This document shows, piece after piece, positions 47,168-50,769 of a stretch of DNA of 64,000 bases (its first letter is position 1; each line of letters begins with the position of its first letter). A program made the position numbers and the translations under genes. A model generated the notes under the pieces. That model worked only from the letters and a program-made list of their open reading frames with translations, was not told the DNA's origin and ran no database searches. The stretch spans positions 277,491 through 341,490 of the forward strand of contig CANQHA010000001.1 in assembly GCA_947623585.1 (NCBI GenBank). The letters are read 5' to 3'. This DNA is from an uncultured Clostridia bacterium. GTDB lineage: Bacteria; Bacillota; Clostridia; Oscillospirales; Ruminococcaceae.

Positions 47168-47196
47168 TTGACAATTTGAGTTAATTTGATTATAAT
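47168..47196 (+). promoter_or_regulatory. Perfect consensus sigma-A promoter
   Basis: TTGACA (47168-47173), 17-nt spacer, TATAAT (47191-47196). Confidence 0.88.
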
Positions 47197-47202
47197 ATTT
47201 AT

Positions 47203-47530
47203 TGTCAGGCGATAATGTGTCCTTAAATTTCTATGATTCGCAGAATGAGAGTGCGAATGAACGGAACGGTAAGGATTTGGGCGCTTGACAAGAAAAAGGG
47301 TAAATCATAGAAACTATTGGCTCCTCTAAAATGCTCATTATGGGTCAAGAAAGCGGTTTGCTGGTTGACTTTAGTTGTCCCCCTGCTGTTTTGTTGCTTT
47401 ACACACACATTACGAACCGATTGCTTGAGTTATCGGTCTTGTTTTGTTGCGTGTAAAGCAGTATAACTGTAATCGTCGTCCACGCACAAGCAAGTACGTG
47501 AACTTTTTCGGTTCAGAAAGGAGGATAAGA
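47203..47530 (+). ncRNA. Candidate structured leader RNA or ncRNA upstream of two small ORFs
   Basis: Paired segments TTTCTATGATT(47228-47238)/AATCATAGAAA(47303-47313); TGCTTTACAC(47395-47404)/GTGTAAAGCA(47451-47460); ACCGAT/ATCGGT (47416/47432); TGAAC/GTTCA (47499/47511) next to the SD. Confidence 0.6.
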
Positions 47531-47532
47531 AA

Positions 47533-47763
47533 ATGAGTAACAAAAAAGTATCCGGAAAGACCCACACAAAAGAGCAACTGGATAATTGGGCAAATCAGAA
47601 TAATCCGAACAACAAGGCATATCGTTCAAATGCAAACAACCATGCCAACCAATTAAACAGAAAGCACCATAATCATCAGCAAAGACATAATTGCTCCCGT
47701 AGACACAAGGAAGCTGTGCTTATGTCCCTGTGGGCTCCTGATTATCCGGAATATGACGACTGA
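47533..47763 (+). CDS. Small Asn/His/Lys-rich protein, unknown function
   Basis: RBS GAAAGGAGG; 76 aa; after long leader with consensus promoter. Confidence 0.65.
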   Translation: MSNKKVSGKTHTKEQLDNWANQNNPNNKAYRSNANNHANQLNRKHHNHQQRHNCSRRHKEAVLMSLWAPDYPEYDD

Positions 47764-47774
47764 AAGGAGATAAA

Positions 47775-47966
47775 ATGGGAAAGTATTTCTTTGATTATGA
47801 CGACGGCGATTTCGCACATTCGATTTCAGATAATATGGCTATTGATTCCGACGGAAATATGCTGATGCGAATGGGCGATAACATGGCGCTGGATTTGGAC
47901 ACGGGAGATATACATTTTATATCCTCATGGCCTGATGACTTATGGTCAGATGACGACGAAGAGTGA
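47775..47966 (+). CDS. Small acidic protein, unknown function
   Basis: RBS AAAGGAG; 63 aa, internal repeat NMAIDSDGNMLMRMGDNMALDLDTGDI. Confidence 0.65.
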   Translation: MGKYFFDYDDGDFAHSISDNMAIDSDGNMLMRMGDNMALDLDTGDIHFISSWPDDLWSDDDEE

Positions 47967-47974
47967 AAAGACCA

Positions 47975-48007
47975 CCCCTGCCGGTTTTCGGCAGGGGGAA
48001 TTTTTAT
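47975..48007 (+). terminator. Terminator of small-ORF operon
   Basis: CCCCTGCCG-GTTTT-CGGCAGGGG-GAATTTTTATT. Confidence 0.8.
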
Positions 48008-48083
48008 TATCTTTGAATCAAAAAATACCGCCTCGCTCCGGTCTTTGAGGAGTATAGTCTTTGCGCCTCCTCCCCTGCTCCCA

Positions 48084-48124
48084 CAAAAAAACAGGCAGAA
48101 GGTTTTGCGCCTTCCGCCTGCTTT
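48084..48124 (-). terminator. ppdK terminator
   Basis: Minus strand AGGCGGAAGGCGCAAAACCTTCTGCCTGTTTTTTT. Confidence 0.8.
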
Positions 48125-48135
48125 TTGATTAAGAA

Positions 48136-50769
48136 TTACTTCTTGTCCTTGATGGCTGCCTGAGCCGCGGCGAGTCTTGCGATCGGGACGCGGAACGGCG
48201 AGCAGGAAACGTAGTCGAGGCCGATCTCGTGGCAGAACTCGATTGAGGACGGGTCGCCGCCGTGCTCACCGCAGATGCCGCAGTGAAGCGACGGTCTTAC
48301 CTTTTTGCCGAGAGTTACGGCCATATCCATCAGCTTGCCGACGCCGGTGGTGTCGAGCCTTGCGAACGGATCGGACTCGTAGATCTTGTTTGCATAGTAT
48401 GCGGGCAGGAACTTGCCTGCGTCGTCACGAGAGAAACCGAAGGTCATCTGAGTGAGGTCGTTGGTGCCGAAGCAGAAGAACTCGGCCTCTTTGGCGATAT
48501 CGTCGGCGGTGAGGGCTGCGCGCGGGATCTCGATCATGGTGCCTACTTCATAGTGAAGATCGGCGCCCGCTTCCTTGATGACAGCGTCGGCAGTCTTTAC
48601 AACGACATCCTTTACAAATTTAAGCTCCTTGACCTCGCCGACGAGCGGAATCATGATCTCGGGAACGATGTTCCAATCGGCGTGGCGGCTCTTGACGGCG
48701 ATAGCGGCCTTGATGACGGCCTTGGTCTGCATAACCGCGATCTCGGGATAGGTTACGGTCAGACGGCAGCCGCGGTGACCCATCATCGGGTTGAACTCGT
48801 GGAGGTCGTTGATGACCTGATGGATATATGCGACGGATTTGCCCTGAGCCTTTGCGAGCGCCTCAATGTCGGCCTCATCGGTAGGAACAAATTCGTGGAG
48901 CGGCGGATCGAGGAAGCGGATAGTTACGGGATATCCTCCGAGCGCCTCGAACAGACCCTCGAAGTCGGCCTGCTGCATGGGCTCGATCTTTGCAAGCGCA
49001 GCCTCGCGCTCTTCAACCGTCTCCGAGCAGATCATCTCGCGGAAAGCGCCGATCCTTGCGGGGTCGAAGAACATATGCTCAGTGCGGCAAAGTCCGATTC
49101 CCTGTGCTCCGAAAGCGGCAGCCTGCTTGGCGTCGGCCGGAGTATCGGCATTGGTTCTTACGCCGAGCTTCTTATACTTGTCGGCAAGCTCCATGATCCT
49201 TCCGAAGTAGCCGCTGTTCGGGTCTGCGGGAACGGTCGGGATGATCTCGCCGTAGATGTTGCCGGTGGAACCGTCAAGAGAAATAGCGTCGCCCTCATGA
49301 TAAACCTTGCCGGCAAGGGTGAAGCACTTGTTCTCCTCGTCCATCTTGATGTCGCCGCAGCCGGAAACACAGCAGGTTCCCATGCCTCTTGCGACAACGG
49401 CGGCGTGCGAGGTCTGTCCTCCGCGAACGGTGAGGATACCCTGAGAATACTTCATTCCCTCGATGTCCTCGGGAGAAGTCTCAAGACGGACAAGAACAAC
49501 CTTTTCCTTGTTCTTTCCGTGTGCGACAGCGTCTTCAGCGGTAAATACAATGGTGCCGGCGGCTGCTCCCGGAGAAGCGGCGATGCCCTTTCCGATCGGA
49601 ACGGCCTTTTTGAGGGCGGCGGCGTCAAAGGTCGGGTGCAGAAGCATATCGAGCGACTTGGCGTCGATCTGCATGAGGGCTTCCTTCTCGGTGATCATGC
49701 CCTCGTCGATGAGGTCGCAGGCGATCTTTATAGCGGCGGCGGCGGTGCGCTTGCCGTTACGGGTCTGGAGCATATAGAGCTTCTCGTTCTCGACGGTGAA
49801 CTCCATATCCTGCATATCGTGATAGTGGTTCTCGAGGATCTCGCAGACCTTCTGGAACTGCTCGTAGACCTTCGGGAAGACCTCGGCCATCTTTGCGATA
49901 GGCATAGGAGTGCGGACGCCCGCAACAACGTCTTCCCCCTGAGCGTTAGTCAAGAATTCGCCCATGAGGCCCTTTTCGCCGGTAGCGGGGTTACGGGTGA
50001 ACGCAACGCCGGTTCCGCAGTTGTCGCCCATATTGCCGAACGCCATCATCTGAACGTTGACGGCGGTTCCCCAAGAATAAGGAATGTCGTGGTCCATGCG
50101 GTAGACGTTTGCACGCGGGTTGTCCCAAGAACGGAAGACGGCCTTGATAGCCTCAAAGAGCTGCTCCTTCGGGTCGTCGGGGAAGTCCTTGCCGAGCTGA
50201 GCCTTGTATTCGGCCTTGAACTGGTTCGCAAGGGTCTTGAGGTCGTCGGCGTTGAGCTCAACGTCCTGAGTTACGCCCTTGGCTTCCTTCATCTGGTCGA
50301 TCAGCTTCTCAAAATACTTCTTGCCGACTTCCATAACGACGTCGGAGAACATCTGAATGAATCTGCGGTAGCAGTCCCATGCCCAACGCGGGTTATTGGA
50401 CTTTGCGGCGATGACGTTTACGACGTCCTCGTTAAGTCCGAGGTTGAGAATGGTGTCCATCATGCCGGGCATCGAAGCGCGTGCTCCGGAACGGACGGAA
50501 ACGAGAAGAGGATTCTCCTTGTCGCCGAACTTCTTGCCGGTGATGTTTTCCATCTTTTCGATGTACTCCATGATCTCCGCCATGATTTCGGGATTGATCT
50601 GACGTCCGTCCTCATAATACTGAGTGCAGGCTTCGGTAGAGATGGTGAAGCCCTGAGGGACGGGAAGTCCGATATTGGTCATTTCTGCGAGGTTGGCGCC
50701 TTTTCCTCCCAAAAGCTCACGCATCTGCGCGTTGCCTTCGGTGAAAAGGTAACAATACTTTTTGCTCAT
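48136..50769 (-). CDS. ppdK: Pyruvate, phosphate dikinase
   Basis: KGANLAEMTNIGLPVPQGFTI, GGQTSHAAVVARGMG, CSPFRVPIARLAAAQAA. Confidence 0.97.
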   Translation of the reverse strand: MSKKYCYLFTEGNAQMRELLGGKGANLAEMTNIGLPVPQGFTISTEACTQYYEDGRQINPEIMAEIMEYIEKMENITGKKFGDKENPLLVSVRSGARASMPGMMDTILNLGLNEDVVNVIAAKSNNPRWAWDCYRRFIQMFSDVVMEVGKKYFEKLIDQMKEAKGVTQDVELNADDLKTLANQFKAEYKAQLGKDFPDDPKEQLFEAIKAVFRSWDNPRANVYRMDHDIPYSWGTAVNVQMMAFGNMGDNCGTGVAFTRNPATGEKGLMGEFLTNAQGEDVVAGVRTPMPIAKMAEVFPKVYEQFQKVCEILENHYHDMQDMEFTVENEKLYMLQTRNGKRTAAAAIKIACDLIDEGMITEKEALMQIDAKSLDMLLHPTFDAAALKKAVPIGKGIAASPGAAAGTIVFTAEDAVAHGKNKEKVVLVRLETSPEDIEGMKYSQGILTVRGGQTSHAAVVARGMGTCCVSGCGDIKMDEENKCFTLAGKVYHEGDAISLDGSTGNIYGEIIPTVPADPNSGYFGRIMELADKYKKLGVRTNADTPADAKQAAAFGAQGIGLCRTEHMFFDPARIGAFREMICSETVEEREAALAKIEPMQQADFEGLFEALGGYPVTIRFLDPPLHEFVPTDEADIEALAKAQGKSVAYIHQVINDLHEFNPMMGHRGCRLTVTYPEIAVMQTKAVIKAAIAVKSRHADWNIVPEIMIPLVGEVKELKFVKDVVVKTADAVIKEAGADLHYEVGTMIEIPRAALTADDIAKEAEFFCFGTNDLTQMTFGFSRDDAGKFLPAYYANKIYESDPFARLDTTGVGKLMDMAVTLGKKVRPSLHCGICGEHGGDPSSIEFCHEIGLDYVSCSPFRVPIARLAAAQAAIKDKK

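Follow-up and report, generated by a model that had tools for sequence, protein, structure and literature searches.

A conserved structured RNA leader with a kissing loop and alternative pairings on a mobile small-protein module in Clostridia

What is a long RNA leader doing in front of two very small genes? In the window, by which we mean the whole 64,000-nt stretch of DNA analysed here, from an uncultured Clostridia bacterium, a perfect promoter (47168-47196; TTGACA at 47168-47173, TATAAT at 47191-47196, spacing 17) is followed by a leader of about 320 nt, genes for a basic 76-aa and an acidic 63-aa protein, and an end terminator, all on the + strand. A first reading of these letters (the sequence-only reading) had listed exactly these parts, and all of them are present. 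The leader occupies 47203-47514, its 5′ end being placed from the position of the promoter. It is followed by the Shine-Dalgarno sequence AGAAAGGAGG (47515-47524) of ORF1 (47533-47763), which encodes the N/H/K-rich 76-aa protein, KVSGKTHTKEQLDNWANQNNPNNKAY...WAPDYPEYDD. The acidic gene lies at 47775-47966 and the operon terminator, identified by eye from CCCCTGCCGG and TTCGGCAGGGG with a T run, at approximately 47972-48006. Judged by its promoter, the module might be strongly expressed. Its GC content is 0.41, compared with 0.52 for the window, and it occurs once in its genome, flanked by a GNAT acetyltransferase gene on one side and ppdK (named from sequence) on the other. In the genome of a sibling species (L108), these two genes are adjacent and the module is absent, which represents an empty site. 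The module of the window is therefore a lone insert. A search for target-site repeats or inverted ends at its insertion point revealed none that was convincing.

Homologues were sought in the order with both the 76-aa protein and the leader DNA, and the two turned up together in other families. The leader DNA was 85, 73 and 68% identical in three other families of the order, and scans of viral and genome contigs gave 38 loci. In total, 28 leader homologues were recovered, mostly from Clostridia and four of them on viral contigs. One cultured carrier is Pseudoflavonifractor sp. An44 (locus L034). With the window included, the RNA lies directly 5′ of a gene of the 76-aa family in 29 of 29 cases, and an AAAGGAG or AAGGAGG Shine-Dalgarno sequence is found in all 29. 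A TTGA-N16..18-TATAAT-like promoter stands at an equal distance from the leader in nearly all of the 28 homologues. Full-length relatives of the 76-aa protein with WAPDYPEYDD-like tails were, in turn, nearly all preceded directly by the leader. Among close relatives of the window species, the proteins were mostly missing. When a covariance model of the leader core was run on 388 genomes of the class and 396 of the order, strong matches occurred only at the known loci and at divergent leaders in three genomes (G380, G296 and G351). Weak matches in G740 and G635 did not resemble the leader and were dropped. Two core patterns searched on viral contigs matched only where the 76-aa protein occurs.

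The 29 leaders gave comparative support to helices P1, P2, P3, P4, P6 and P7, to a kissing loop and to an alternative pairing, A1. Strands paired better with their own partners than with re-paired ones (P ≤ 0.0015), and three control pairings were not significant. Over all scored pairs, 96.4% of the cells were paired, and two-sided changes were seen in 17 of the 35 pairs. Shuffles reached the observed value in 0 of 500 trials on four of five measures and in 10 of 500 on the fifth, figures whose significance is inflated as the shuffles ignore relatedness. RNAalifold, given the alignment of the 29 leaders, found P2, P3, P6a and P6b unaided. The sequence-only reading had staked its structured leader on covariation among homologues; this covariation is strong and bears the structure out.

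P1 (47202-47291) joins TTGTCAGGCG (47202-47211) to CGCTTGACAA (47282-47291) and encloses P2. Its strands scored 15.5 when paired with their own partners and 10.3 when combined across sequences (P = 0.0005), and the 28 sequences contained 25 distinct strand pairs, nearly all fully complementary. The P2 hairpin (47236-47258, loop AATGAGA at 47244-47250) had five of seven pairs changed on both sides, and the P3 hairpin (47317-47348; 47317-47323 with 47342-47348) three of five scored pairs. The P2 loop pairs with the P3 loop (47333-47339), giving a kissing-loop pseudoknot (47244-47339) in which AAYGAGC/GCTCRTT and AAYGAGA/TCTCRTT covary and 96% of the cells are paired. P4 (47310-47392), formed by GAAAC (47310-47314) and GTTTT (47388-47392), also covaries; it is weak in the window and 7-9 bp long in relatives.

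Among the helices that had been drawn from the window's letters, a 10-bp stem (47395/47460) is conserved as drawn, but the others are not. The 11-bp helix (47228/47303) is perfect in the window only, partial in the closest relatives and 4-5 bp long elsewhere, and it competes with the conserved P2 and P4. CCTTA and TAAGG, thought to cross this helix as a pseudoknot, do pair in part, but they extend P1 inwards around P2 and are therefore nested. Real crossing pairs occur at other places, in the kissing loop and between 47414-47420 and 47508-47514.

Could all this have arisen by chance, in a 5′ untranslated region of the ordinary kind? Chance pairing does occur in AT-rich intergenic DNA, and the helix that first drew attention is not kept across the family. 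However, most helices show two-sided changes, and pairing falls from 96% to 30-43% when the partners are slid by 1-3 columns. The DNA identity of 68-85% in three families and the structure kept in 29 sequences also make the leader more than chance. We regard chance folding as hardly credible, and the comparison shows the leader to be a real conserved RNA that folds.

The region nearest to ORF1 has the appearance of an expression platform. P6 (47396-47459) consists of P6a (47396-47404 with 47451-47459), which is the conserved 10-bp stem and has 99.6% of its cells paired, and the apical P6b (47416-47421 with 47432-47437), with 95% of cells paired and two-sided changes in four of five pairs. Between the RNA and ORF1 lies an intrinsic terminator, P7 (47481-47508), a part that the sequence-only reading had missed. 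A filter for a hairpin plus U-run was passed by 27 of the 29 leaders; the window, whose P7 is imperfect, is just below the threshold, and L048 has no terminator. The 5′ strand of P6b is also used by A1 (47414-47514), in which GAACCGA (47414-47420) pairs with TCGGTTC (47508-47514), the latter ending next to the Shine-Dalgarno sequence; across the leaders, this segment lies 2 nt before it. In A1, 97% of the cells are paired and five of seven pairs have changed on both sides. The two pairings share a strand and are mutually exclusive, and both covary. Some changes suit A1 only or suit A1 better: AAACCG/CGGTTT (L041), GAACT/AGTTC (L049), GAGCTAA/TTAGCTC (L042) and GAGT/ACTC (L054). A further pairing of the P6 3′ strand with the 5′ arm of the terminator (A2) was weakly supported (P = 0.0015). 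No conserved upstream ORF hidden in the leader was found among the 29 sequences.

In the isolated segment from P6 to the Shine-Dalgarno sequence, A1 plus A2 was less stable than P6 plus the terminator, by a mean of 12 kcal/mol, so the A1 plus A2 conformation would need a partner. Alternatively, P6a may stay paired, with A1 forming a pseudoknot. A free equilibrium switch was considered and is not what the energy comparison shows. A1 could form only once the terminator has been passed, and thus A1 itself cannot be the antiterminator.

Three features argue for regulation of the cargo in cis: the leader has a fixed place before an ORF, a terminator follows the RNA, and an alternative pairing reaches the Shine-Dalgarno sequence. 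It seems rather probable to us that the leader acts in cis as an attenuator, combined with a switch at the level of translation, and controls a mobile cargo operon of the phage moron type. RNA polymerase would start at about 47203, and the compact RNA (P1, the P2 and P3 kissing loops, and P4) would form, followed by P6 and the terminator. The default state would be OFF, with a terminated RNA of about 300 nt and little message. Where the terminator is bypassed, the 5′ strand of P6b could leave its hairpin and pair before the Shine-Dalgarno sequence in A1, and this would decide on the translation of ORF1. What triggers the switch is probably the binding of a protein to the upstream domain, plausibly of the protein that the first gene encodes, as in prophage AbiF. 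The direction of the switch, its trigger and the function of the protein are what we infer beyond the comparison. The imperfect terminator and P4 of the window's own copy speak against a switch.

Bacillota attenuators and translational riboswitches combine a structured domain with a terminator and, near the Shine-Dalgarno sequence, with pairings that exclude one another. The leader has all three in common with them, the alternation being read from covariation, but unlike them it has no known aptamer or metabolic target and it accompanies mobile-element cargo. A metabolite riboswitch, in which the kissing-loop domain would bind a small molecule and set termination, might be suggested by the compact, aptamer-like domain beside an expression platform. 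We consider it improbable, because no metabolic gene lies downstream, the gene context suggests no ligand, the association is narrow and with mobile cargo, and the core alters when the downstream gene alters.

The mobility of the module is evident from its phage copies. Phage morons have their own promoter and terminator, are inserted between structural genes on the opposite strand, and are absent in relatives. At three loci (L023, L025 and L032), a tail assembly gene and the tape measure gene flank the module, which is encoded on the opposite strand. In phages with 85-91% identical flanks (L154-L157), the empty site, where GGAATATAA runs directly into CAAGGAGG, is uninterrupted; among the relatives listed, only L169, which is the L023 contig, carries the module. 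At L048, the module lies inside another, PBSX-like tail cluster (gene names assigned by eye). Integrase-like neighbours were seen at L036, L038 and L051, a tRNA on the locus at L051 and L047, and a tmRNA at L043. The phage copies are autonomous units between phage genes, missing in close relatives, and have the anatomy of a moron (the term is that of PMC6469090) or small cargo unit. They resemble morons in promoter, terminator, insertion between structural genes, strand and absence in relatives. They differ in their large conserved RNA, which accounts for about half of the unit, and in that the module is also found as lone chromosomal inserts. Separately, three genomes (the window, 47939-48150, L040 and L045) have the module beside the 3′ end of ppdK, and the opposite flank differs among them; this may reflect either a common insertion site or a shared transfer.

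The proteins offer few clues from databases. The 76-aa family, aligned from 28 sequences, has 11 invariant residues, and no match was found in Pfam, NCBIfam, PADLOC or the PDB. An AlphaFold model of three helices (pLDDT 69.5, pTM 0.34) was too weak for use. The 63-aa acidic protein had homologues in six other genomes in the first search and matched no database family. AlphaFold2 predicts it to be all-beta (pLDDT 86); a fold search returned nothing at E ≤ 0.001, the best viral match (E 0.005) being a 49-residue uncharacterised Citrobacter phage protein. Neither window protein matched a plasmid collection. The basic and acidic pair behind the leader, put forward as a unit by the sequence-only reading, exists in the window, but the acidic ORF is present in some relatives only. 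The constant part is the RNA with the 76-aa protein or, in a divergent branch, with an HNH protein. At L016 (1282-1680), the acidic protein is followed by a 76-aa-type relative, and no leader RNA is present.

The arrangement recalls a known prophage system. In Clostridioides difficile, the prophage RCd22-AbiF locus comprises a SigA promoter, an RNA, a terminator, an RBS and an ORF; RCd22 lowers abiF expression and neutralises the AbiF protein via direct binding, and the authors suggested a riboswitch-like read-through mechanism (PMC12373285). The abiF RNA (RF03085) and our leader have the order of promoter, non-coding RNA, intrinsic terminator, RBS and gene in common. Unlike the abiF RNA, the leader is two to three times longer and has a kissing loop and an alternative pairing at the Shine-Dalgarno sequence. 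It did not match RF03085, no Abi_2/AbiD/F protein was found downstream by Pfam or PADLOC, and the 76-aa protein is unrelated to Abi_2. It is possible, though we think it unlikely, that the terminated RNA is the main product and acts as an RNA antitoxin, of the type III toxin-antitoxin or AbiF-like kind, neutralising a protein, either the 76-aa protein or the HNH nuclease, made from a rare read-through message. The shared part order, the basic protein, the strict co-occurrence of RNA and protein and the variation of the RNA core with the downstream protein would all fit. A terminator between RNA and gene, as in type III systems, was found in 27 of 29 cases; however, a search of the leader for tandem repeats, the form of their antitoxin RNA, found none, and Pfam and PADLOC placed the 76-aa protein neither in Abi_2 nor in any other toxin family.

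The divergent branch bears on the attenuator reading. The divergent leaders of G380, G296 and G351 precede a 113-116-aa HNH protein in which the HNH motif is present and Pfam matches are below the cut-off. The next gene encodes the acidic protein in G380 and G351 and a relative of the 76-aa protein in G296. On three viral contigs (L080, L082 and L083), a divergent leader RNA again lies 5′ of an HNH gene. As the HNH, acidic and 76-aa genes occur in varied combinations, the three small protein families travel together. HNH-branch leaders retain P6 together with the terminator, and L075 and L082 also retain the kissing loop; the core between P3 and P4 is altered, and L080 has yet another core. 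An altered core with these elements kept fits recognition of the downstream product, and the difference between the branches, seen at few HNH loci and with L080 deviating, suggests that the RNA may recognise that product. More speculatively, and with clear reservations on our part, the RNA and the small proteins (76-aa N-rich, ~113-aa HNH and acidic) might form a new ribonucleoprotein or RNA-antitoxin system carried by phages, in which effectors are interchangeable on one kissing-loop scaffold, probably for phage-phage competition. In L093 and L094, the acidic protein comes after a ~104-aa HNH protein; the RNA is lacking there, and by eye an HTH-regulator-like reading frame lies upstream.

HNH proteins also raise the idea that the RNA acts in trans or like a guide for an HNH nuclease element; the copy in the window would then be a remnant that has lost its nuclease. 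Besides the divergent leaders, Staphylococcus-1 RNA (RF03112) is followed by an HNH domain related to theirs. In genomes of the same order, this RNA was found at L088 (1309-1433), L090 (1825-1952, - strand) and L092 (1298-1427), just 5′ of longer HNH proteins, which have ~310 aa (in L092, 215 aa were read), and the HNH domain of L088 is weakly like that of Cas9 (PADLOC, E 4e-4). The association with a related HNH, seen here and not a published criterion of RF03112, applies to the HNH branch only; the window copy has no HNH gene. By eye, a CCTTTGAGG-like stretch is common to Staphylococcus-1 RNA and most HNH-branch leaders, but Staphylococcus-1 RNA has a different overall fold and is linked to longer HNH proteins. 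Its covariance model matched neither the window leader nor the divergent ones, and leader model R1 found nothing at the Staphylococcus-1 RNA loci (L088-L092). We consider a trans-acting or guide role very improbable, as the leader runs from its own promoter to its own terminator with no variable guide-like end, and selection maintains the fold in 28 homologues that lack HNH. No HEARO or omega RNA match was found in Rfam, and the downstream ORFs had no IscB or IsrB match in Pfam.

The sequence-only reading had recognised no regulatory RNA class in the leader, and the Rfam check agreed: no family of Rfam 15 matched at gathering score, and weaker scans (E up to 5 for the window leader, up to 2 or 1 for the divergent leaders) gave chance-level matches only. 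As a kind, the module is already known (structured leader, attenuator, moron); among open-licence papers, the RNA family, its design of kissing loop plus dual pairing and its protein partners appear to be new. It adds a large, well-supported structure outside Rfam that contains a pseudoknot as well as an alternative pairing documented by evolution, and that belongs to mobile DNA moving between gut bacterial families. It also gives a concrete handle on the silencing of phage morons and the timing of their release, and links three unnamed, jointly recurring small protein families: the 76-aa N-rich, the acidic and the short HNH proteins. One clear exception to the association is L047, where a 76-aa-type gene lies behind a different leader. 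This leader (~178-545; AGYRAATAGCGACTTGAGC...) is shared with L095, where it lies 5′ of a short HNH gene, at 73% identity over 64 nt, and the two perhaps represent a second unnamed leader family.
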